Of a stretch of 64,000 nucleotides of DNA, positions 6,604 through 59,907 are shown piece by piece. Both the position numbers and the translations under genes were made by a program. The notes beneath the pieces are model-generated. The model saw only the letters and a list, made by a program, of their open reading frames with translations. It searched no databases and was not told the DNA's origin. Source of the stretch: Nothopassalora personata. Its lineage: Eukaryota > Ascomycota > Dothideomycetes > Mycosphaerellales > Mycosphaerellaceae. Every line of letters starts with the position of its first letter. The first letter of the stretch is position 1. Where the stretch lies: assembly GCA_033816765.1 (NCBI GenBank), contig CM066296.1, positions 62,001 through 126,000 on the forward strand, given 5' to 3'.

Positions 6604-6678
6604 GGCTAGGTAGCTTAGTTAGTAGAGCGTAAGCTGTCTACACTCTTAAGGTCGTAGGTTCGATTCCTACTCTAGCTG
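6604..6678 (+). pseudogene. RIP-mutated tRNA-like sequence inside the Ty3 element
   Basis: The 75-nt stretch can form a 7-bp acceptor stem (GGCTAGG with TCTAGCT, two G-U pairs), a 4-bp D stem with an A-box-like GCTTAGTTAGTAGAGC, and a perfect T arm (GTAGG TTCGATT CCTAC) with an exact B box. The anticodon arm does not fold properly. Several TA dinucleotides sit where a normal tRNA has CA or TG. A T6 run follows at about 6723-6728. It lies between the pol stop (about 6706, minus strand) and the antisense ORF. It may be a captured tRNA gene, a SINE remnant or a functional part of the element. Confidence 0.5.
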
Positions 6679-21773: not shown

Positions 21774-22327
21774 ATTCGCTTTCGCTGCTCATTTGCCCCT
21801 AAGAAAGAAGTAATGTAATACTGACTGACAAGGAGGGAGTAACGGTCTTGTACGTCATTACCTACCTGCCTTCATCATATTCTTCTGCAGCAGTCGCCAA
21901 GGGATGCTGCAGATCGTAGAGCGGCGCTGAACGACAAGAGCATCTAGACATCTAGACGTTCTGCCAGACTTACGATATGCAATTGCATTTGCAGAAGTGG
22001 GAAAGGATGAGCAGTGGGGAGGAAAGATCGACATCCTCGGCAATTCCCGATCCCGTGAAGGGGTGGAGGGGGCCGGCAGGCGTGTTGGCATGTTGTCCAC
22101 TCGCATACTGGAAGTTGGTGACAAAATGTCTCTCTACATGTCAATCTGCTCTAATACATGGTCTGTCACTTTTTCCATACATTGTCCCGGATTGGCTGCA
22201 TGTTTCACTTTCACTCCGACGGTCCGAGCTCCGAGCTAAGATCTTGGCAAGAAGGGGATCACTTATACCGCGGCAGTCTTGAAATAATATATATCATATA
22301 CAATTGTAAATTCACGCTTACTAAAAA
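21774..22327. other. Intergenic, transporter promoter region and tRNA 5' flank
   Basis: About 550 bp between the transporter start and the serine tRNA, presumably holding the minus-strand transporter promoter. I see no ORF with family features. Just upstream of the tRNA the sequence is AT-rich (TAATATATATCATATAC), compatible with a TATA-like upstream element. Confidence 0.5.
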
Positions 22328-22582
22328 GCTGTGGTGTCGGAGTGGTTGTAAGTCTCGTAATCACTTACCCCAGACGAAGTATAACCTAATTTGGAGCAGA
22401 ACGAGTCAGACTTGAATGCCTACCATTCCAGTTATCTGATGCCTTCGGGCGCGCAGGTTAGTCAGACATTAGCCAACTAATGGCCTTCTTATTCTAACGT
22501 TTCCTGAAGGTTCGAATCCTGTCGTAAGTTCTTCTTCGCTAGTCAGTAACTGGTCACGTTCTGACATCCTCACAGCGCAGCG
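22328..22582 (+). tRNA. tRNA-Ser(UGA) with three mRNA-type introns plus the canonical intron
   Basis: The spliced exons are 22328-22347, 22400-22416, 22434-22456, 22510-22523 and 22576-22582, giving an 81-nt class II tRNA. The acceptor stem GCTGTGG pairs with CCGCAGC (one G-U). The D arm is TCG/CGA with loop GAGTGGTTAA. The anticodon stem TCAGA/TCTGA is perfect with anticodon TGA at 22413-22415. A GCC-TTCG-GGC variable arm is present, and the T arm is GCAGG TTCGAAT CCTGT. The discriminator is G73, as expected for serine. A 17-nt intron (22417-22433) sits at the normal 37/38 site. Three other insertions must also be removed: 22348-22399 (52 nt, D loop), 22457-22509 (53 nt, T stem) and 22524-22575 (52 nt, acceptor 3' strand). 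They start GTAAGT, GTTAGT and GTAAGT, end CAG, AAG and CAG, and have branch-like CTAAT (22386), CTAAC (22494) and CTGAC (22561). A box 22335-22345 and B box 22509-22519 are intact. Confidence 0.9.
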
Positions 22583-22610
22583 TACTCTGCCATCGTTGTA
22601 GACGACTCTC

Positions 22611-22616
22611 TTTTTT
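22611..22616 (+). terminator. Possible Pol III terminator of tRNA-Ser
   Basis: A T6 run 28 bases after the tRNA 3' end. No T-run of four or more occurs inside the gene or its introns, so a Pol III transcript could reach this point. Confidence 0.5.
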
Positions 22617-22738
22617 GCTTTTCAAAACCTCCTGGGCAAGAATATCACACCTACAGTCAGGCTTTCGACTTCTCTTTTGCTCGGGATACGGAACGTGCCA
22701 TCAGCGATTTCGACTCACTGTCGCTCGCTGTCACCCAC

Positions 22739-28493: not shown

Positions 28494-30967
28494 TCAATGG
28501 TCGACCCCATTTCCCTCGGGTTCTGGCAAATCATCAATACCTCCGCCGTCCAAATTCCCTAAACTCGCCTGCGTAGTCGCCCTCCTTCTAAACCCATTGA
28601 TTCTACTCCTACTTCTACTCATCCCAGCCGCGCTCCCGAAGACCCCGCTCGCATCACTAAAAGCCCTACTACTTCGCCTCGTCCTCACCGCCGTTGCAAA
28701 GTCCATCTCATCGTATTCTGTAAATACATCATCCACATCATCCATCTCATCTAGGACACTCTGCGGCGGATCCGTATCGAAGACAGCTTGGAGATCACCA
28801 TGCGCTCCAAAACGCGCCCACATACTGAGCCAAGTGTGTTTTCTGGGTGGGGACAGGAACCGGGCTCGTTTCCAAAGGTAGCGGCGCTCGTAGAGCGTGA
28901 TGAGGATGAGGATCGGGAAGTTGAGGATCCGTATTGCCGTGATGTTGACTTTGTGGAACCAGCGGGGCGAGAGGATGAATTTGAGTGGAAGGAGGACAAT
29001 GAGGGCGATGACATTGACGGGAGGTCGGTAGGCGAAAATGGCGTCGGATTTGACGCCTTCGAAGGTGAGGACTGCGCGGCGGAACTCGATTTCTGCTGTG
29101 GCGTTCCGGGAGAGATTATTGTATGTATTGGAGAGCATGGCGACTAGGATTGTAAGGAAGAGTGTATTGCCAAGGAAGGCGAAAGTTATCATCAGAAGAG
29201 GTCCGAGGAACCAGTGCATTTCGACTGAGCGCTGGACACCTGTGCCGTCGAGACCGAACCAGATCCAGAGCATCCATTTGCAGATTGTGATGACGGTATG
29301 TTTGAGGAAGCCTTCTCGGCCCTCGCTGAGCCAGGACAGGGCGAGAATGAAGCCACCGAAACACCAGCAAGCCAGGACTGTCAAGAAAGTGAAGTCGGCC
29401 ATCATGGCTCGAAGAGAGATGAAGAGCATGTTCTCCGACATCAAGCAGAAGGCCAGCCGCGGTAGCAAAACGGGTGCGCCCAAAGATAGAATCTGCTCCG
29501 CGAGCAAGCTATACTCTCGATCTCCAACTCGAAGCGCATGCACCCGGATGCCAAAGTAAATCCAGAAAATCAGCACGAAGGCGAGGTCGAGGAACGACCA
29601 CAAGTTCTCCGTGTGTACTGTCCAGCCGTGTTCGGTGATACTAGCCAGCTCGTCCACGTTCCAGCCGATAGCATAGACGACGAAGACGAACTCCAATCTA
29701 GTAAAGCTGAGGTGACTTGGACCTTTCTCTGCCGCCTTTGATATCATTAGTGTGAGATATAGGACCAGTAGTATCACGAACTGAACTGTCTCGATCATGC
29801 TTCTCGTCCTGGGTACTATCAGACGATACTGGTTGAGATAAGGTGCTTTCCGTGGATCGTAGAGTGTTATCCCGCGATTCTTGTAGTGGTCTGGCAGGAT
29901 GTCGATGAACGATGTCGGCGTGTAGATGATCCGACCACGATACACATTCTCAACGATCTTTTGGCATGCTGAAGATGACAGGAAGCCCTTTGCTTCTGTC
30001 ACGATTGCGACTTCAAGTGCAGTGAGCATGCGTTGATATTCTGGTCGTGCGAGCTTCCATTTGACGGTCCAATGTAGATCTGTCCTGTGATCACGGGTGA
30101 TGTCTCGAGGTGCATTCTGAAATGGCTCGAACCCTGCCACCTAAAGGCAAGGTAGATTAGCCTAGGTGTCTCAGAAGGGAGGCACAGAAGCCATGAGCGT
30201 TCTGAGGGTGTCTCAGATTTCCCATCATGGCTACTGTACTTGACCTTACTCACAAGGACATGCGCGACTTTAAGCAGACCCATCCGCCCTTCGTGATCTT
30301 CGTCAAATCGCCGCAGAATCCTACTCGCAACGATCTCGCAAAGATTCGCCCGGGTGATATTCACAGACTGATGATGCGCCTGGTAGGACTGCTCTCGCAG
30401 AAATTGTGCGCGATTTACCAGCAAGCAGAAGACCACGGATACATCCTCTGCATCGTACAGGTGGTCGATCAACGGCCTGATGACTGCGACGTTCATTCGC
30501 GGACTCTTCAATTGCTCGTTGCTGTATGGATCGTCGAGACTGGCTATTATAAGCCGTCTAATCTTGTGTATCGTGGTGTACACTGGCAGTTCAGCATGTG
30601 GATTTGGGACTGTCGGATCTGAGTTCTTCCTAGGAGGGTAGCATCCATCGTCGTCTGCCTCTTCGTTCTCGCCGAGCAATGTTTCTTGCTCTTCTCGTGC
30701 GCGGGCCAGTCGCAATGCTTCTTGAAGCTTAGCTTGACTGGTACCTCGCATAGTGTTGCGATTCGGTAAGCGCGGTCGTACTGGCGATGCCATGCGGATG
30801 TGCTGAGATGAGGCATCGTCGTTGGAATCGTTGCGTTGGGTATGTCCATTCGTGAAGCTGTCGTTCTCGTTCGTTTCGATGTCGCTCATGCGCCGCTGTT
30901 CTTCCAGTTGTGTCGTTGTCGCCCGCGACAGTGGCGTACGCGCCGGATCATCGTCCATCGTCGCCAC
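28494..30967 (-). CDS. YVC1: Vacuolar TRP-type cation channel, YVC1-like
   Basis: Two exons (30967-30254 and 30140-28494) joined across a 113-nt intron (GTGAGT to TTTAG) give 786 residues. The N-terminal about 110 residues are polar and disordered. A cytoplasmic helical domain follows (VYTTIHKIRRLIIASLDDPYSNEQL; FCLLVNRAQFL). Residues about 345-600 contain several membrane helices ending in a pore-like segment (WFGLDGTGVQRSVEMHWFLGPLLM) and a last helix with FLGNTLFLTILVAMLSNTY. The C-terminal tail is acidic and then Arg/Ser-rich, including an EMDDVDDVFTEYDEMD stretch that fits the acidic calcium-responsive region of fungal vacuolar channels. The family releases calcium from the vacuole under osmotic stress. 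The order and length match YVC1 homologues. Confidence 0.85.
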
Positions 30968-31705: not shown

Positions 31706-31843
31706 GGGTTTGTGGCGCAGTGGTAGCGCGTAAGTGACACCGAAGAATTCACGGCCCAAGCACAATATCTAAATCATCAACAGGTCCGCTTTGCATAATG
31801 GAATGCTTGCGGAAGGACCGGGGTTCAATCCCCCGCGGATCCA
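31706..31843 (+). tRNA. tRNA-Ala(UGC) with one mRNA-type intron plus the canonical intron
   Basis: The spliced exons 31706-31729, 31784-31795 and 31808-31843 give a 72-nt tRNA. The acceptor stem GGGTTTG pairs with CGGATCC and includes G3-U70, the universal alanine identity pair, with discriminator A73. The D arm GCGC/GCGC has loop AGTGGTA. The anticodon stem TCCGC/GCGGA is perfect, anticodon TGC at 31792-31794. The variable loop is AGGAC and the T arm CGGGG TTCAATC CCCCG. A 12-nt intron (31796-31807) sits at the canonical 37/38 site. A 54-nt insertion (31730-31783) between positions 25 and 26 must also be removed. It starts GTAAGT, has CTAAAT at 31769, and ends CAACAG. The A box (31713-31723) and B box (31822-31832) are outside it. 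Without this removal no anticodon arm forms. Confidence 0.9.
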
Positions 31844-32379
31844 CTCGATATTTTTTTCATTGTCCTTTGCCATGAAAGCATTCAATGATATTATCGTTTT
31901 TCCATTCGCTTCACCACTAGCTTTGCACGATCTTTTTCGTCCATAAATAGTGTATTTTTGGGTTACCTGGACTGTTGTGATGCACAAGGGGTCGCAAAGT
32001 CCCCAGACAGTTCGGCACAACCCCTGTCAATGTTGCCCATGGTTGAACTTCAGGTATGAGGCTATATGCCAGGTCTGGCACGGACATTCACAGCCGAGCT
32101 TTTCTTCGATGACTTCTCCTCTGCGACAACAGCAACGACACCATGCATCGTAGAAATCTCAGCTACCATCGCATGACGTATAGAAGTTGATGTGACGAAG
32201 TAGAAACGACTTTGGATTACCCCTGCGCTCCCATCGTCGATCTACCTGTGGAAATTCTCAGCCACACTGTCTGCTTGTGCGATTCCCAAAAACTCGTTGA
32301 ATTAAACATTTCTCTTCGATGTATTCGCTTATTGTTTGAAAGATTAGACGGATGATATTTTGCCTCCAGCCACACGAAT
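31844..32379. other. Intergenic
   Basis: About 540 bp after the alanine tRNA; apart from its terminator I see no supported feature. Confidence 0.5.
31851..31857 (+). terminator. Pol III terminator of tRNA-Ala
   Basis: A T7 run begins 7 bases after the discriminator base, the usual place for a Pol III terminator. Confidence 0.8.
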
Positions 32380-38144: not shown

Positions 38145-40899
38145 ATGGACACCTGGCTGTACTCATCTGCAGCCGGCGGGTCTGGAAGCGGCAGCACCTC
38201 ACGGGCATCCGTTGATGGTCTTGGGCACCACAAGAACTCGGCCATTCAGTCGGCGGCCTACCGAGATTCATCCTCGCCAGATGAGGCCAAAAGCGCCAAC
38301 AAAGCGGCCACGCAGAGTGCTCCTAGGATCCGCCGAAGGAATCGTCAGATCACCTCGTGTTTGGAGTGTCGTCGCCGCAAGCTGAAGTGTGACAAACAAG
38401 CACCATGTACGAACTGCACTCGCTTCAAGCGGGACTGTCTGTACTTGGCTGCCGCGCTGGACCCGTCGGCGCAGCAGAAGCTGGCAGACATGAAGGAGAA
38501 GATGGGCGCGCTTGAGAAGAACCTCGAGCGAGAAGTCGCGGCCAAGACGCAGAAAGCCCATGTTGGAGGTGGCAACGTAGTCAAGCCCACAGCCGACGAG
38601 TTCAGACAGCGGCAGGAAGCAGAAGATGAAGAAGATGCTGCCAATGAGGACGAGGATGCCTTGGAGCCTACACCTTTGGCGTCACTCGACAATGTATATG
38701 ATGACAACGTCGACGATGAGCTGATGGATCTGGGAGTTCAGGTAAGTGCAAGATCCTCTATCATACGAGTCAATTTTTAACGTGCCCTAGATGGGCAAGA
38801 TGCGCATCTCCGACCGCATAGGAGGCTGGCTTCGTCCGAAACTTGTCACAGAGCTCAACGATACCCTCGAAGATGTCAAGGCTGGCAAGTCGCGCTACTC
38901 CACCACTCCAACGAGCAATGGTCATGTTGATCTAGTCCCCGGTGCATCAAAGCTGCAAGCCTCGCCGGTGAGCTACATTGGACCTGGTCCTGACTACATT
39001 GCTCCTGCTTCAAGCTTCTTCTTTCCTGGAACAAACATGAGCGCGAGCCTGATTGACTATCTTCCTTCGAGGAACGCGGCAGATCAGCTCATTAATCAGT
39101 ACTGGAACGCCGTGCACTACATGTGTCGAATCGTGCATCGTCCGACCTTCGAAGCACAGTACACTCTCTTCTGGGGACAGATCGCAACGGATAGCGAGCC
39201 TGCGGAATCTGTACAAGCGATTATATTCAGCGCCATGTTCTCGGCAGCCGTGAGCATGACTGCTGAGCAAATTACGCAGCGGTTTGGCGCCACGAAGAAC
39301 GCGCTCGTTGACAACCTCCGCTCTGGAGCCGAGACGGCGCTTGCAAAGGCCAACTTCTTGAGAACCACTCGAGTCGACACAATGCAGGCATTTGTGATGT
39401 ACCTCATTCCCTTGGTACGCTCGGAAGTCTCCCGAGGACATTCCGCATTGGTAGGTACAGCGATTCGATTGGCAGAATGCATGGGACTGCATCGTGATGG
39501 GTCATACTACAACACGACTCCCATAGAAACGCACGTCCGGCGAATGGTCTGGCATCAACTTTGCTTCTTGGACATGAGGACTTGCGAGGCGACTGGACCT
39601 CGACCTCAGATTCGCATAGACGATTACGACACCAAGATGCCGCTCAACGTGGACGATCTGGACTTGCTTGGACCTCAGCCCCCAAAAGAGGACAATTCAT
39701 TCTGGACTGACATGACTCTCATGCGCATCCGTGCCGAATGTCAACAAATGAAGCGGCAGGTGTGGTACGACATCGTTGACTTGGACAAGAAAAAGAAGTC
39801 CTTAACTTCCATACTAGTGAAGGTGCAGAGGTTTCGGACGAGCATGGAAGATAGGTATCTGCCCATGATTGATGACTCCGTGCCCTTCCAAAGATTTGGA
39901 CGCCTCGTCTTCGAGATGCACACGAGAGCGCTTCATATCCAGGTTTTGCATCGATACATGTTCAACACGACACAACGCATGCCTGATCGCTTACGACAAG
40001 TTCTCATTGAGGCTGGTCTTTGCCAGATGGAGTCATCGATAGCTTATGAGACGGACCCCGATATGCAAGCGTGGACGTGGTACCGCGGAGCTTTCAACCA
40101 ATACCACGTAGCCCTCTTACTCATGGGAGAGGTTTACGCATACCCAATGCGAAAAGAGGCCGCTCGCGTCTGGAAGTGTCTCGACTACATCTTCGAGATA
40201 CCCTCGCATCTTGCGCCAAAACAGAAAGCAGAGCTAGTTATGGCAGATCTGAGAGATCGAATGGAGGTGTACCATCAAATGCGTAAGGTGAAGGTGTCGA
40301 AACAAATGGAGCAAAGAGTTGGCGGCAATAAGATTGGCCTTTATCAACGAGCAGATATGATGCTTGACGAGATGGGCCAGATGCATCAGAATACAGCCGC
40401 TCAAGCAGCAGGCGCTGGGACACTTCCGCCTCCGCCAAAAGCAAATTCTGACACTAGCAGTTCTGGACGACCTCACAGCCTCTCCGGTGGGCCGCAGGAC
40501 GTGCAGATGGAAACTATGGAGGACATCGACTGGGTAAGATAATCCCTACCCCTCTACGAGACTTAACTAAAAACCCAACAGGTCGAATGGGAAAAAGTCT
40601 ACAACCCCGAACACTACACCGGCGACCTAAATCTACCCGACTTCAACATGACCGACTTCACAGGAGACTACAGCGCCAACTCTGCAGGAATGGACCCAGC
40701 CGCCTTCAACATCACAGCAGCTGCAAATATTCACAACATCGGAATAACGCAGTCAGAGCTGCTCAACATGCCGACAGAAGCAGAGCTCGCCGACTTTCAC
40801 TTCACCCCATCCATGATCCCGCCCTTGAATGCTGCTTCCCAGATGCCGGGCGATCCTTACCAGCAGCACTTCCCTCCCTCCAAATACTCGCGAGGGTAA
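38145..40899 (+). CDS. Zn(II)2Cys6 transcription factor with fungal-specific TF domain
   Basis: Three exons: 38145-38741, 38791-40533 and 40582-40899, with introns of 49 and 48 nt (GTAAGT/CCTAG and GTAAGA/AACAG). The product is 885 residues. The Zn2Cys6 binuclear cluster uses Cys72, 75, 82, 88, 91 and 98 with the standard spacing. A short coiled coil follows (about 108-135) and probably mediates dimerisation. A long acidic linker leads to the fungal transcription-factor regulatory domain (Fungal_trans), with YWNAVHYMCRIVHRPTF and GTAIRLAECMGLHRDG as its typical motifs. The C-terminus is Asn/Asp/Pro-rich and could activate transcription. The target genes are unknown. The class II aldolase gene downstream is convergent, not co-oriented. 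Confidence 0.9.
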
Positions 40900-43394: not shown

Positions 43395-44620
43395 GGAGAG
43401 GTCGAGCGTATGGGTGGCGAGAGAGTGCAGTAGAGCTTGTACTTTACCAATACGATGTTGATGCTTTCTTTCGCTGGGTGAAGGTCAAGCAATCGCGCTC
43501 CCGTTGAAAAATCTTGCCCAGCAGTGCGTATTGTGGAAGGCATGGCTTCATGACTCGGCTCGGCTCGGGGATGTGTTCTCCACCGCGGGTCTCCCGTGTT
43601 TGTGTTTGGGACATGGCTCGATGGCTCGATGGCTTGCTGCGCTGTGCCGTTGGCGATGGCGTCGTCATGGACAGCGACCGCCAACTGCCTCGCCGAGTGC
43701 GAGCGCTGCGGTGACAAGCCATTTTTATGGGAAAGCTGTCTGCTACGGTACATTCAGACATTTTGCAAATGGCCTGTCACTGCGATATTAGCCTTGTAGA
43801 AGTCACGAGACAGCGGAAGTCGTGCAATAGACTTTGCTGCGGCCAACACGAGGTGCTTCCCGAGTTGGTTTTGCTGGATGATTAGCACTAGCATCCTCAG
43901 GCGTCGTCTGCACGTTTCATGAGCAAGCTTCTTCTCCCCTCTGCGCAGTGTTTCAATATAGCCAGTGCCTGCATTATCATTGTGCAGTGCCGAAGGCTGC
44001 AGGCAACGACTTGTTGGATGTGGTTCGCGGGTGCTTGGGGATCGACACGATTAGTGGGTGTGGGAGGAGTGTTAGAGACGGACGCTTGCCCGGCGTGTAG
44101 ATCGGTGCAAAGTGTGGACAGGCGCACAGCAGTCACTCCCCGGTGACCGTGGACTCGCTATCGACACCTCCTGGTCCCATCCCATCGTCGGACATATTCC
44201 TAGAGTGCATCAATATCTGTCTGCTGGAGCGCGTGGTGCACCCTCAACATATCACGCGCCGGTCAGAGCTCCCGTCGGCGCAGCCCACCACAGCCTGTCG
44301 CGGAGCGCAGTCCACCTCGAGAGATCGATCCGCTTACCTGGTACGGTAGTCCTATTACTATCGCTCCCTAGCCGAGGGCCGATCATTGGACATTAGAACA
44401 CACATGCAAGACACGCGTATTGGGCACACACAACACCGGACAAGAGTTGCCGGGCCTCGCTGCTGCGCTTGTACGCACAGCGCAGGCAGAGCACACCTGC
44501 GCGACAACCACCACCACCACCACCACCATCACCCCGAGCACGAGCACGAGCACGAGCCTCGTCAGGACATCAGCTGGGCACGGGCACGGCGACGGGCACC
44601 GCACGCTACACCACACCAGC
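43395..44620. other. Upstream region and leader of the WC-1 gene
   Basis: A 1.2-kb region. Near its 3' end are CCACCACC repeats (about 44508-44530) and several ATGs out of frame. An in-frame ATG at 44420 would add 67 Thr/Ser/His-rich residues to WC-1. No other gene is seen. Confidence 0.5.
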
Positions 44621-50963: not shown

Positions 50964-51772
50964 ATGATGGGCGACGCACACAAGATCTCAATCACAGTGT
51001 GCGGCGACGGTGGCTGCGGCAAGTCGTCCATCACACTGCGTCTGGTCCGTAGCCAATGGACGCATGAGTACGCAAACCGGTCATCCCGGTATACACCGCT
51101 TAACACTAATGCCTCTGTGCAGATACGACCCCACCATCGAAGACTCCTACTCGGTGACGCGAACGATCGACGGCACGACGTACCAGCTCAATCTGACTGA
51201 CACTGCTGGCCAAGAAGAGTATCGCGGACTATGGTCATCGTCGAACCTGACCTCCGATGCCTTTCTCTTGGTATACGACATTACGCAGCAGACCTCGCTC
51301 CAAGCGTTGGACTACTTCAACCAGCTGATCGGCATGGAGAAAGAGAATCGTGTAGAACGCGGAGCAGTACTACCGGTCTGCATTGTCGCGGGCAATAAGT
51401 GCGATTTGCAAGGTATCCGACAGGTTCCTGCGAGAGAAGGTCTCGACTGGGCACGGGGTCTTGGGTATGGCTTCATGGAGACTAGCGCAAGAGAGATGGT
51501 CAACATCGAGGAGACATTTGCTCGTACGTATCAGTATGCTTTGCTGTACTGACACGTATGCTGATCGTTTCGCAGTCTTGGTGAGAAGGGTTGTGCAAGC
51601 ACGGAAAGCTCATTCAGAGGGCGTCATGAACCTACCAAATTCCACCGCTCGAACGCGACCACTAGAGCCCCTGGCACCTTTGGACGAAAAGGCACTTCCT
51701 CCCGACCCGAAGTGGGATGAGCACGAGCAAATGCCAAAGGACCGATGGTGGCACAAGCTGAAGTGCTGGTGA
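50964..51772 (+). CDS. Ras-family small GTPase lacking a CAAX box
   Basis: Three exons: 50964-51067, 51123-51523 and 51576-51772, with 55- and 52-nt introns, giving 233 residues. All GTPase boxes are present: P-loop GDGGCGKSS, switch I YDPTIEDSY with the invariant Thr, switch II DTAGQEEY, GNKCDL and ETSA. The effector region is Ras-like rather than Rho- or Rab-like. After the G domain come about 60 residues with a Pro-rich PLEPLAPLDEKALPPDP and a Trp/Lys-rich end, DRWWHKLKCW. There is no CAAX prenylation box: the only terminal cysteine is second from last. The intron sites give uniform phases and the C-terminus is in frame to a TGA, so this is probably not a misread. The role is unknown. Confidence 0.85.
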
Positions 51773-53468: not shown

Positions 53469-54915
53469 ATGTACAAACCAATCCTTAGTGTGCTGCTGTT
53501 TTTCTCGGCCTTTAGCTACGCCTCAAACCCACAGCATATGCATCTCCACAACAAAGTCGGCGCCAGAAGCCTCCAGTTGGCTCGCGATGGCACCCAGAAA
53601 GTGCATCAAGGCTTCAAGACCATCGGCTACTACGTGGAGTAAGAATCCCTACCCGTCGCCACCTCAATGGAATCACATGCTAACGCCGCAACAGCTGGGC
53701 CATCTACGGCAGAAACTGGCCCCCCTCCAACATCCAAGCAACAGAACTAACGCACCTCCTCTACGCCTTCGCCGGCATCAACAACAAGACCGGCGCCATC
53801 TATCTAACCGACGAATTCGCAGACATCCAAAAGCAATATCCCGGCGACGACAACCAGACCGATCACCTGTACGGTAACCTCAAGCAAATCTACAACCTCA
53901 AGAAGCAGAACCGTAACATGAAGACCATGCTCTCCATCGGCGGTTGGACCCTCCGCACATACTTCGCCCCAGCTCTCGCCAACGCCACAGGCCGCGCGAC
54001 ATTCGCCAAAACTAGCGTGCGCATGCTCGCAGACTTGGGCTTCGACGGCCTAGACATTGATTGGGAGTATCCGAACTCGGCCCAAGAAGCGGCAGACCTC
54101 GTCGAGACCTGTCGCCTCTTCCGCGAGGAGCTCGACAACTACTCTCGCAACGTCACGGGCGGGAAGTACCATTTCCTCCTCACGCTCGCCGTGCCCGCGG
54201 GACCGGATCATTTCAAGTTCTTTGATGTGCCAGGTCTGGCGCCGTACGTAGACTTCCTGAACCTGATGGCGTATGATTTCCAGGGTTCGTTTTCGAACTA
54301 TTCGGGACATAATGCGAACATGTACAAGTCGCAGACGAACCCTCGGTCGACGGATTTCGATGCGCAGACGGCGATTGATTACTACGTTAACTCTGGGTGG
54401 CCGAGGGAGAAGTTCAATCTGGGGATGCCGCTTTACGGGAGGAGTTTTGCCAACACTGCTGGGCCGGGGACGAATTTTACGGCGGCTACGGATGGGAGCT
54501 GGGAGAATGGCGTATGGGATTATAAGGTGACTACTATTCCTCACCCTGATGCATCCATCGTTCACTAACGTTTGCCTAGGTGCTGCCCCTCAATGGCTCT
54601 CTCGTCTCCCCAGTCTACCACGACGACAGCATCATCGCATCGTGGTGCTACAACAACCGTACGCGCTACATGGTCTCATACGACGATCCCAGCATCGCGA
54701 AGACGAAGGCGCAGTACATTAACCAGAATCAGCTGGGTGGTGCTATGTGGTGGGAGCTTAGTGGGGACCGTCCACTGAATGATTCTCGCAGTCTTATCAA
54801 AACGGTGGTGGATGAGTTCCAGCAATGTGGCGGGCTGGAGTACTGTGAGAACTGGTTGGACTACCCGCAGAGCAAGTATCCGAATATGAAGGCGGGAATG
54901 CCGGCCGAAGGCTGA
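53469..54915 (+). CDS. Secreted GH18 chitinase
   Basis: Three exons: 53469-53638, 53695-54526 and 54580-54915, with 56- and 53-nt introns carrying CTAAC branch sites. The product is 445 residues. A signal peptide (MYKPILSVLLFFSAFSYASN) is followed by the GH18 barrel: GYYVDWAIYGRNW at strand 1, SIGGWTLRTYF at strand 3, and the catalytic DGLDIDWEYP (Asp and Glu). Further family segments are LMAYDFQGSF and GGAMWWELSGD. Such chitinases hydrolyse chitin during cell-wall remodelling, autolysis or nutrient scavenging. No chitin-binding module is present at the C-terminus, which ends in a short Cys-containing tail. The catalytic residues are intact, so activity is expected. Confidence 0.92.
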
Positions 54916-57929: not shown

Positions 57930-59907
57930 CTAAGCGCTTTGGGCAAGACCCTCCCTTTCCCGGGCCGTGTATGTCACACGATGCCAGGCATTTCCAAGCA
58001 GACCACGGAAATTCCATGTGCCCGCGAATGTGGCTGGCTGGCAATTATGCGACTCGTCCACAGCTTTGACCACGAACTCTACATTTTCCTTAGGAAGTTG
58101 ATCCTCTGGCCATTCCATATTCCACAGAGTCCACGCCCAACGTCGTGTACCTTTGGCGTTGTCTTTGCGCAGGCAAGCTTGTTTCCAGGTCTTGCCGCCG
58201 TCTGCACTCACATCTACTCTCACAATCCTTCGGCCACCACCGCTGTACGCGAAGCCATTCAAGGCCACAGACGCATCTTCCATCCTCTTCATATTAGTTA
58301 TGGCACTCTGGACTGGAAGTTCCTGGATGCTCTGTGCTTCGTCCCAATCTTCTTGTTTCAGATCAGCTGCTCGCACATTTGGTCCGAAGCACTTATAGTC
58401 ACGGCTGTGCCAATTGCTTTGCGATTCGTCACAGCTGATTCTGACCTTTTCGACCCACTTCACACTGCGTGTGGCAACACTTCCTGGGACTATGGCTCGC
58501 AGTGGTCCACCATGGTCTCTCGGCATGGGCTCTCCATTCATCTCCCATGCCAAGAGGACATCCGAAGCTGGGTTCAACGCAGTCTGTAATGGTATGGACT
58601 GCTCGTATGTGTCGCTCGGAGCGCAAAAATGGATGTGTCGGTCGGCTTCTGGTTCGTCTGGGCATGACATGCATGCTGCAGTAACGTCGTAGCCAGAGTG
58701 CATCAAGACATCACGAAGACGCACGCCAGTGAACTCTGCAGTACCTATGGCACCAACATCCCAGGGAAGACCAGATGTTTTGCCGTGACCGGCTTCGTTC
58801 ATATGACCCCGTCGGTTGCCTGCACATTGTAGCGTCACTGTAACAGTGTGCTGCTGGAACTTCTGTTTCAGGTCATCGATCGAATACGCCACCTCCGTTC
58901 CGTCAGACATTTCGATCTCAAGCTTGTGCTTGCTGACATCCAGTCTTGGGACCTACTTACGTGTCAGGACCGTATTACCGGGCGAATGGTTTGAGCACAG
59001 ACTTACCCAAAGATGATGCCGCACGAAAAACAGTCGCAGCGGTGTCAAGAAGTCGGTGAGGAGCTGACCCGGTGTTTCGGCATTGAATGGCTTAGGTGTG
59101 TGGACTATCAATTCTGGATCACGCTCTGGATCGTCCTTGAACGGATCTTCGCAGCTGCTACAGTCATTACCCAACACACTCCAGTTAATGCGGCCGTCGG
59201 TGTCCAGATCTCGTTGGTCGACCTCGCCAATGTAGAAGTCGTCAAGAATCTTCTGGACCTCGGGCTTGTTATGAATGCTAAACAGTTTCCAGAATGGATC
59301 GATACTTTTGCCACATGCTCTCAAGATGACCTTACCGCCAGGATGACTGGCTACGAACTCTGTGATGTCGTAGACTGCTGTCCCATGGACTACCCACTTG
59401 CTGTCTGAATGCTCGTCGTGTTTCGCTATGTCGGCAAGACGATGCGTCTGGATACCGGCAGCATCTTGAACGCAACTTAGCATCGATCGACCATGGCATC
59501 ACTAAACTGAACCGCTTACCTTCGTGTTCGCTGATATGAACATCGTTATCAACAACATTCGATCTGCCTACTTGATCTCCGACCCAAGTTGTCATCGGAG
59601 CTGCCAGAACAGCTATGGCAGAAGCACCAAACAACAATGCTAACGCTCCACCAGCATGAGATCTCTTAGGTTCTGCTCTGGCATAACTGAACGTCCCCCT
59701 AATTGTCCCAACACCTCTTCTCGGGAATCTCGTTCTCGATCCCTTCCATATCGACTCTTGCAGTTTCCCGGGCGCAATCTGAGCGAAGCATTTCGTCGAA
59801 GTCGTCGTAAGGCTGCGGGCCGACGATTTCGGGCCAGAAATGGATATCAGGCTTTCGGCTATTCGCTTCGGCGTGCCGATCGTGTTTTGGAGCCGAATTG
59901 ATGGCAT
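57930..59907 (-). CDS. Mitochondrial sulfite oxidase (cytochrome b5 + molybdopterin)
   Basis: Three exons: 59907-59520, 59464-59007 and 58952-57930, with 55- and 54-nt introns, total 622 residues. The first about 60 residues are basic and Ser/Arg-rich like a mitochondrial presequence, followed by a hydrophobic segment (GGALALLFGASAIAVLAAP). This fits import to the intermembrane space. A cytochrome b5 heme domain follows (WVVHGTAVYDITEFVASHPGGKV with the heme His-Pro-Gly-Gly). The sulfite oxidase molybdenum domain comes next, with LQCAGNRRGHM carrying the cofactor-binding Cys and HGGPLRAIVPG. The C-terminal dimerisation domain has RRIVRVDVSADGGKTWKQA. It oxidises sulfite to sulfate, passing electrons to cytochrome c. 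Met 59907 was preferred over 59952 because the sequence after it is the better presequence. Confidence 0.88.

Follow-up and report, generated by a model that had tools for sequence, protein, structure and literature searches.

An interrupted tRNA-Ser(UGA) gene

The DNA analysed here, a 64-kb stretch referred to below as the window, carries on its forward strand a tRNA-Ser(UGA) gene (22328-22582) that is divided into four exons by three inserts with the signals of mRNA introns. Exon 1 (22328-22347, as in the ARAGORN call) supplies the 5' strand of the acceptor stem, the A-box region and the start of the D loop. Exon 2 (22400-22456) contains the rest of the D arm, the anticodon arm, the variable arm and the start of the T stem, while exon 3, of just 14 nt (22510-22523), provides the end of the T-stem 5' strand, the T loop, the T-stem 3' strand and position 66. 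The seven nucleotides of exon 4 (22576-22582, again from ARAGORN) are the 3' strand of the acceptor stem and G73.

The first insert (22348-22399, 52 nt) lies in the D loop and has GTAAGT at its 5' end, a CTAAT branch site and a terminal CAG. The second (22457-22509, 53 nt; GTTAGT, CTAAC, AAG) interrupts the T stem between positions 52 and 53, and the third (22524-22575, 52 nt; GTAAGT, CTGAC, CAG) the acceptor stem between 66 and 67. The coordinates are exactly those given in the initial annotation, which was made from the sequence alone, and the gene reads as described there. The ordinary tRNA intron at 37/38 that it described is also present, with a length of 17 nt (22417-22433; shifted by one base in the 3' direction in the ARAGORN output).

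The claim that a serine tRNA emerges only when all three inserts are taken out was borne out by ARAGORN, which calls a tRNA from that one of the eight possible subsets of removals; the other seven yield none, and hence no fold with fewer insertions. Similarly, the region 22201-22700 contains six consensus-like GT-AG candidates allowing 21 combinations, and a tRNA results from one only, the same set of three. The cloverleaf obtained has an acceptor stem of seven pairs (one of them G-U), five pairs in each of the anticodon and T stems, a long variable arm and a consistent anticodon. Both the A and the B box are contiguous in the DNA, the B box taking in the last G of intron 2, and a run of six T residues downstream (22611-22616) is a possible RNA polymerase III (Pol III) terminator.

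An Rfam scan of the window missed this gene. A DNA search with the spliced serine tRNA gave no match and, since it failed to recover even the gene from which the query derives, is uninformative. With one 13-mer probe, for which 38 of 54 other places in the genome were examined, no second tRNA-Ser(UGA) gene was found.

A second interrupted gene in the window

The same Rfam scan detected a tRNA-Ala(UGC) gene, also on the forward strand (31706-31843). Here a single GT-AG intron of 54 nt (31730-31783; GTAAGT, CTAAA, CAG) falls between positions 25 and 26, separating exon 1 (31706-31729) from exon 2 (31784-31843), the latter containing a 12-nt intron at 37/38 (31796-31807). A run of seven T residues follows at 31851-31857 and may likewise serve as a Pol III terminator. 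When both strands of the window were scanned with a model permitting up to four consensus introns at any place in the tRNA, only these two genes matched.

Interrupted tRNA genes across the genome

Targeted searches of the fungus's own genome (assembly of 54.5 Mb in 40 contigs) yielded 33 nuclear tRNA genes, a sample rather than a census, spread over 10 contigs. Two thirds of them, 22, carry GT-AG introns, from one to four each and 46 in total, with lengths of 49-62 nt and a median of 53 nt. The initial annotation had presented the serine gene as a single oddity, which it is not; its reading of the inserts as introns of mRNA type is supported.

The interrupted genes, with the number of GT-AG introns in brackets, encode Ser-UGA (3), Leu-CAA (3), Leu-CAG (4), Leu-UAG (2), Asp-GUC (four genes with 1, 1, 2 and 3), Glu-UUC (2), Ile-AAU (2), Arg-UCG (2), Val-CAC (1), Val-AAC (two genes with 1 and 2), Ala-UGC (1), Asn-GUU (two genes with 2 each), Pro-CGG (4), Gln-UUG (4), Lys-UUU (2), Thr-UGU (1) and Trp-CCA (1). 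The 11 genes free of them are five for Gly-GCC and one each for Tyr-GUA, Ala-AGC, Ala-CGC, Arg-UCU, Val-AAC and Pro-AGG.

The first 27 genes, 16 of them interrupted by 35 GT-AG introns in all, came from B-box patterns combined with an intron-aware scorer; the places examined for these patterns were 15 of 15, 32 of 37, 9 of 24 and at least 11 of 204. Probes made from exon fragments added two Asp genes, one Asn and one Lys (4 of 4 places examined for a 16-mer from the Asp D arm, and 4 of 4 for the Asn/Lys exon probe), and an A-box probe (19 of 33 places) added the Thr and Trp genes. Looser rules were used for L036, L040, L137 and L138, and L141 was placed by hand with its anticodon arm unscored. 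Gene finding relied mostly on the GT-AG model, so that inserts of other kinds could escape it. One sample only was drawn independently of the B box, namely the six places that differ from the A-box probe by no more than one base. Five of them proved to be tRNA genes, four of which are interrupted; the sixth, L142, agrees with a D arm but for one base and is a candidate.

A scan dispensing with the B box recovered 25 of the 31 genes known at that stage, missing L036, L040, L044, L082, L137 and L138 because of its stricter intron rule. A tRNA-like repeat (L064) scored 19.2 in that scan. When 63 of the 2063 candidates from a genome search with the Rfam tRNA model RF00005 were scored, none of the 33 genes was among the 63 matches listed: three of these lie on an AT-rich contig that is likely to be mitochondrial, and the 27 others examined are copies of a tRNA-like repeat.

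Could such genes be assembled by chance from tRNA-like pieces, or arise through errors in the genome assembly? A finder free to pick among many possible introns might be suspected of the former. Against this, among 432 shuffled regions (16 from each of 27 regions, with the T arm kept) the best score was 16.5 and none reached 17, as compared to 19.9-25.7 for the 27 real genes, and 2326 shuffled windows gave no match at all. With the 33 genes dispersed over 10 contigs and, as described below, exact empty sites present in paralogues, chance or misassembly is the most improbable explanation of all those considered.

Of the 27 genes in the first set, 25 also have an ordinary intron at 37/38. The Arg-UCU gene (L052) has an insert of 58 nt there, as compared to 11-33 nt in the other genes, and it offers no strong GT-AG reading. 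The five Gly-GCC genes (L050, L051, L055, L066 and L071) encode identical mature tRNAs and differ in their 37/38 introns (18-28 nt), which, from the sequences, is drift in ordinary tRNA introns as well. At least 17 5S rRNA genes scored above cut-off (47 of 2839 candidates scored), each 120 bp long and uninterrupted; Pol III genes have thus not all been invaded.

Intron signals and class

Partly by construction, since candidates were mostly selected with such motifs, 45 of the 46 introns begin with GTNNGT or GTNNGC, their 3' ends are CAG (29), TAG (9) or AAG (8), and in 42 of 46 a CTRAY motif occurs 8-32 nt before the end, against 5.9 in shuffles, with a median distance of 12 nt from its A to the intron end. 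The 35 mapped inserts occupy sites from 9/10 to 71/72, none of them at 37/38.

Because the finder had the GT-AG rule built in, the rule was dropped in a further test in which all nearby removals of 40-72 nt were tried for each of 35 introns. The GT..AG removal was the sole best in six and best or tied in 26. The remaining nine (L036#2, L040#3, L042#3, L044#2, L058#2, L060#2, L060#3, L067 and L074#1) were beaten by another removal by a margin of 0.3-0.8. One of these, L042#3, is the third intron of the serine gene in the window, for which an end five bases earlier (GT..CT) scores 24.3 against 23.6 because the last bases of the intron mimic the acceptor strand. Introns 1 and 2 of that gene are tied best with 28 and four other removals, respectively, mostly shifts of a few bases. 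Loosely placed introns are L044#2, inside the anticodon of the Leu-CAA gene, where the rival removals would put a Thr anticodon on a Leu-like tRNA, together with the second and third introns of the Leu-CAG gene (L060#2 and L060#3).

The initial annotation had also likened the inserts to the introns of this organism's protein genes. Size and signals do agree with the small sample of five protein introns from the window, four of which contain CTRAY. Two were placed by alignment to homologous proteins, in genes for a YVC1-like channel (30141-30253, 113 nt) and a sulfite oxidase-like protein (58953-59006, 54 nt); the other three, in genes for a Ras-like protein (51068-51122, 55 nt), a Zn2Cys6 protein (38742-38790, 49 nt) and a GH18 protein (54527-54579, 53 nt), were placed by reading frame.

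The statement that known tRNA introns of eukaryotic nuclei sit at 37/38 proved too strong, as two papers describe several D- and T-arm introns in tRNA genes of the red alga Cyanidioschyzon merolae (PMC4090602; PMC9602550). By analogy, the inserts might be tRNA introns at ectopic sites, removed by the tRNA splicing endonuclease. The central helix of the bulge-helix-bulge motif is, however, absent: none of the 46 GT-AG junctions fits a strict definition, and a relaxed one is matched by 5 of 35, which is the shuffled rate (null 13.5%). Bulge-helix-bulge introns were rejected as a class on these grounds. The strict test also finds none among 25 of the 37/38 introns of the same genes, indicating little power against the ordinary eukaryotic endonuclease and blindness to other modes of recognition; for this reason it rules out introns of the red-algal type better than it does other endonuclease recognition. 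The constant GTNNGY, CTRAY and YAG or AAG elements and the narrow length range of 49-62 nt are spliceosomal marks for which the endonuclease has no known need, and we regard its involvement at the GT-AG sites as very unlikely.

Self-splicing introns, or copies of transposable introners, would account for the spread of inserts in another way. Group I and II ribozymes are far larger, and a length of 49-62 nt is too short for them. Introner-like elements do occur in relatives of this fungus. Among 35 introns, though, the best similarity was 26, slightly above the maximum of 24 in 20 shuffled sets, and no family of copies was seen, so that a transposable introner family was rejected. Together these two possibilities have next to no likelihood.

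Filled and empty sites in duplicated genes

Paralogues provide a comparison of the same tRNA with and without particular introns, independent of any folding model. Of the 14 introns present in the families for Asp, Val and Asn, seven have their exact 14-nt exon join uninterrupted in the DNA of a paralogue. The mature tRNAs of the four Asp-GUC genes differ from that of L069 at 0-1 of 72 bases. L048, L069 and L136 each have an intron in the anticodon stem that is absent from L135. Two further introns, one where the T arm begins and one within the T loop (GGTTCG/GTAAGC...AAAG/ATTCC), occur in L135 and L136 and are absent from L048 and L069. The anticodon-stem introns of L048 and L069 are offset by one base (ttt/GT versus tttc/GT) while leaving the same mature join, an arrangement suggestive of an intron that has slid or been gained independently.

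Introns at shared sites are 58-75% identical, within the range of shuffles for Val and Asn, while the exons compared are identical or nearly so. The two Val genes L078 and L082, for example, are identical over 74 bases, and their shared-site introns are no more alike than shuffled ones. Frozen exons beside drifting inserts are what one would predict for sequences that leave the RNA. The genomic DNA itself shows the inserts with their splice signals, the tRNAs predicted on their removal and the empty sites in paralogues.

These comparisons bear on whether the interrupted genes are dead copies, with uninterrupted genes elsewhere supplying the tRNAs. Eleven of the 33 genes do lack GT-AG introns, and the gene sample is incomplete. 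The exons of the interrupted genes, though, are frozen (Asp as above, and the Val and Asn pairs identical) while introns at the same sites diverge, and all four Asp and both Asn genes found are interrupted. For Asp, the D-arm 16-mer, with up to one mismatch permitted, occurs at four places, each of them an interrupted Asp gene; an uninterrupted one with a more divergent D arm could escape this search. In eukaryotes the Asp codons are read by this single tRNA. With every Asp and Asn gene found being interrupted, their splicing would be essential. That the interrupted genes are dead is accordingly very improbable, and the narrower proposal of an isolated serine pseudogene was rejected given a genome-wide pattern and the frozen exons of paralogues.

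Promoter boxes, terminators and polymerase

The A box (positions 8-19) is split in eight genes (L036, L040, L044, L053, L057, L074, L093 and L138) by introns at 9/10, at 10/11 or early in the D loop, and the B box is split inside L135, L136, L137 and L141. Thus in 12 of the 22 interrupted genes one or other box is broken, a configuration which, judged from the DNA, sits badly with ordinary Pol III initiation and raises a second question of how such genes are transcribed. Runs of at least four T residues occur within 70 nt downstream of all 33 genes, and of five in 26 of 33, as raw counts for which no background rate was taken; no run of five lies inside any gene. This combination points to Pol III. 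Avoidance of T4 within 35 introns appears when they are set against mononucleotide shuffles (2 versus 7.5, P 0.011) and is not significant against dinucleotide shuffles (2 versus 3.1, P 0.37). A TATA element lies 20-60 nt upstream of 15 of 32 genes, again a raw count without a background rate.

With the promoter boxes of 12 genes split, the polymerase could be either Pol III or Pol II. The introns would still be spliceosomal if Pol II made the transcript, with splicing coupled as for an mRNA and the ends of the tRNA released later. The split boxes favour such a pathway; the downstream T runs, subject to the proviso on background, and their absence inside the genes do not, and Pol III transcripts can in any case be spliced, as the U6 RNA indicates (PMC10484740). 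Transcription by Pol II is, on balance, unlikely.

A proposed route to mature tRNA

Taking these lines of evidence together, we consider it highly probable that the serine gene, as one of 22 interrupted genes among 33, contains three mRNA-type introns in addition to its 17-nt intron at 37/38, and that the three are removed by the spliceosome before the tRNA folds. More generally, removal of the GT-AG introns of tRNA precursors by the spliceosome is very likely, as far as genomic evidence allows us to infer.

A transcript ending near the downstream T run would be made by Pol III or Pol II. The GT-AG introns, of U2 type and 49-62 nt long, would be spliced first, by intron definition, the usual mode for short fungal introns. 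This order would follow from the structure, as the unspliced serine transcript cannot form a cloverleaf and has to lose its GT-AG introns before any other step. Processing of the ends by RNase P and the 3' endonuclease, and the addition of CCA, would come afterwards. The 37/38 intron would leave last, cut by the tRNA endonuclease, because that enzyme requires a folded tRNA body. On an evolutionary scale, introns would be gained or lost unevenly between duplicated tRNA genes, and would be free to drift because they leave the RNA.

It is also probable that tRNA production in this lineage depends on the spliceosome, given that two thirds of the sampled genes, including each Asp and Asn gene found, are split by up to four introns of U2 type, some of them within a promoter box, the anticodon or its stem. 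Translation would then be impossible without spliceosomal processing of tRNA precursors.

Whereas introns of the spliceosomal kind typify mRNA genes, those of tRNAs are the business of a different enzyme; the genes described here contain both. Confirmation of the splicing would show that the spliceosome can handle tRNA precursors at high flux and with exons of 7 to 20 nt. Intron gain would then be directly testable, duplicated tRNA genes holding filled and empty sites between frozen exons. In that same event, standard annotation, for which the tRNAscan-SE 2.0 paper limits eukaryotic tRNA genes to one intron (PMC8450103), would miss a large part of the tRNA complement in genomes of this kind.

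Relation to known systems

Neither this type of intron nor the splicing of non-coding RNAs is new. No report of spliceosomal introns in nuclear tRNA genes was found in the open-access literature, and nuclear tRNA genes as hosts of mRNA-type introns, in such numbers, appear to be a novelty. The closest parallel is the U6 RNA of Schizosaccharomyces pombe, a Pol III transcript with an mRNA-type intron that is spliced (PMC10484740, citing Tani and Ohshima 1989, 1991). As is probable in this fungus, the intron resides in a short RNA made by Pol III, but a single gene is concerned, as against 46 introns in 22 tRNA genes here, and the same source attributes the U6 intron, tentatively, to a reverse-splicing event close to the catalytic bases of that RNA.

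The nuclear rRNA genes of filamentous fungi offer another precedent, in that a structural RNA again contains mRNA introns, according to a 1993 title on spliceosomal introns cited in PMC11782384. Unlike the genes described here, they yield a Pol I transcript. Later work has reported spliceosomal introns in rRNA genes of ascomycetes.

Several introns per tRNA gene, at ectopic sites, are shared with C. merolae and with a nucleomorph, where up to three per gene fall in the D, anticodon and T arms (PMC4090602; PMC9602550), and, with respect to number and varied position, with archaeal tRNA genes, which also have up to three (PMC8450103). In contrast to the GT-AG inserts, the introns of C. merolae and the nucleomorph are described there as of bulge-helix-bulge type and cut by the tRNA endonuclease, and the archaeal ones are likewise of bulge-helix-bulge type. 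In C. merolae the D- and T-arm introns are removed before the anticodon intron, as stated in PMC9602550, which parallels the order proposed above. Ordinary eukaryotic introns at 37/38 are present here too; the GT-AG inserts differ from them in position, length, signals and, very probably, enzyme.

Other features of the window

A tRNA-like element with the anticodon CUA (tRNA-Pyl according to ARAGORN) lies on the forward strand at 6604-6678 and scores 50.9 bits. It belongs to a dispersed repeat with many near-identical copies, of which 27 were examined (L005-L031), and is likely to derive from a tRNA or to form part of a transposon. At 43706-43785 (forward strand) lies an inverted repeat, its arms about 22 nt long, that scores 23.8 bits against a miRNA family whose threshold is 88 and is perhaps the remnant of a small transposon. 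The proteins encoded in the window have their nearest relatives among the Mycosphaerellaceae, Fulvia fulva included: one, an MFS transporter, is 88% identical to its counterpart in Fulvia, and the YVC1-like channel is 96% identical to a metagenomic protein and 79% to one from Zasmidium.
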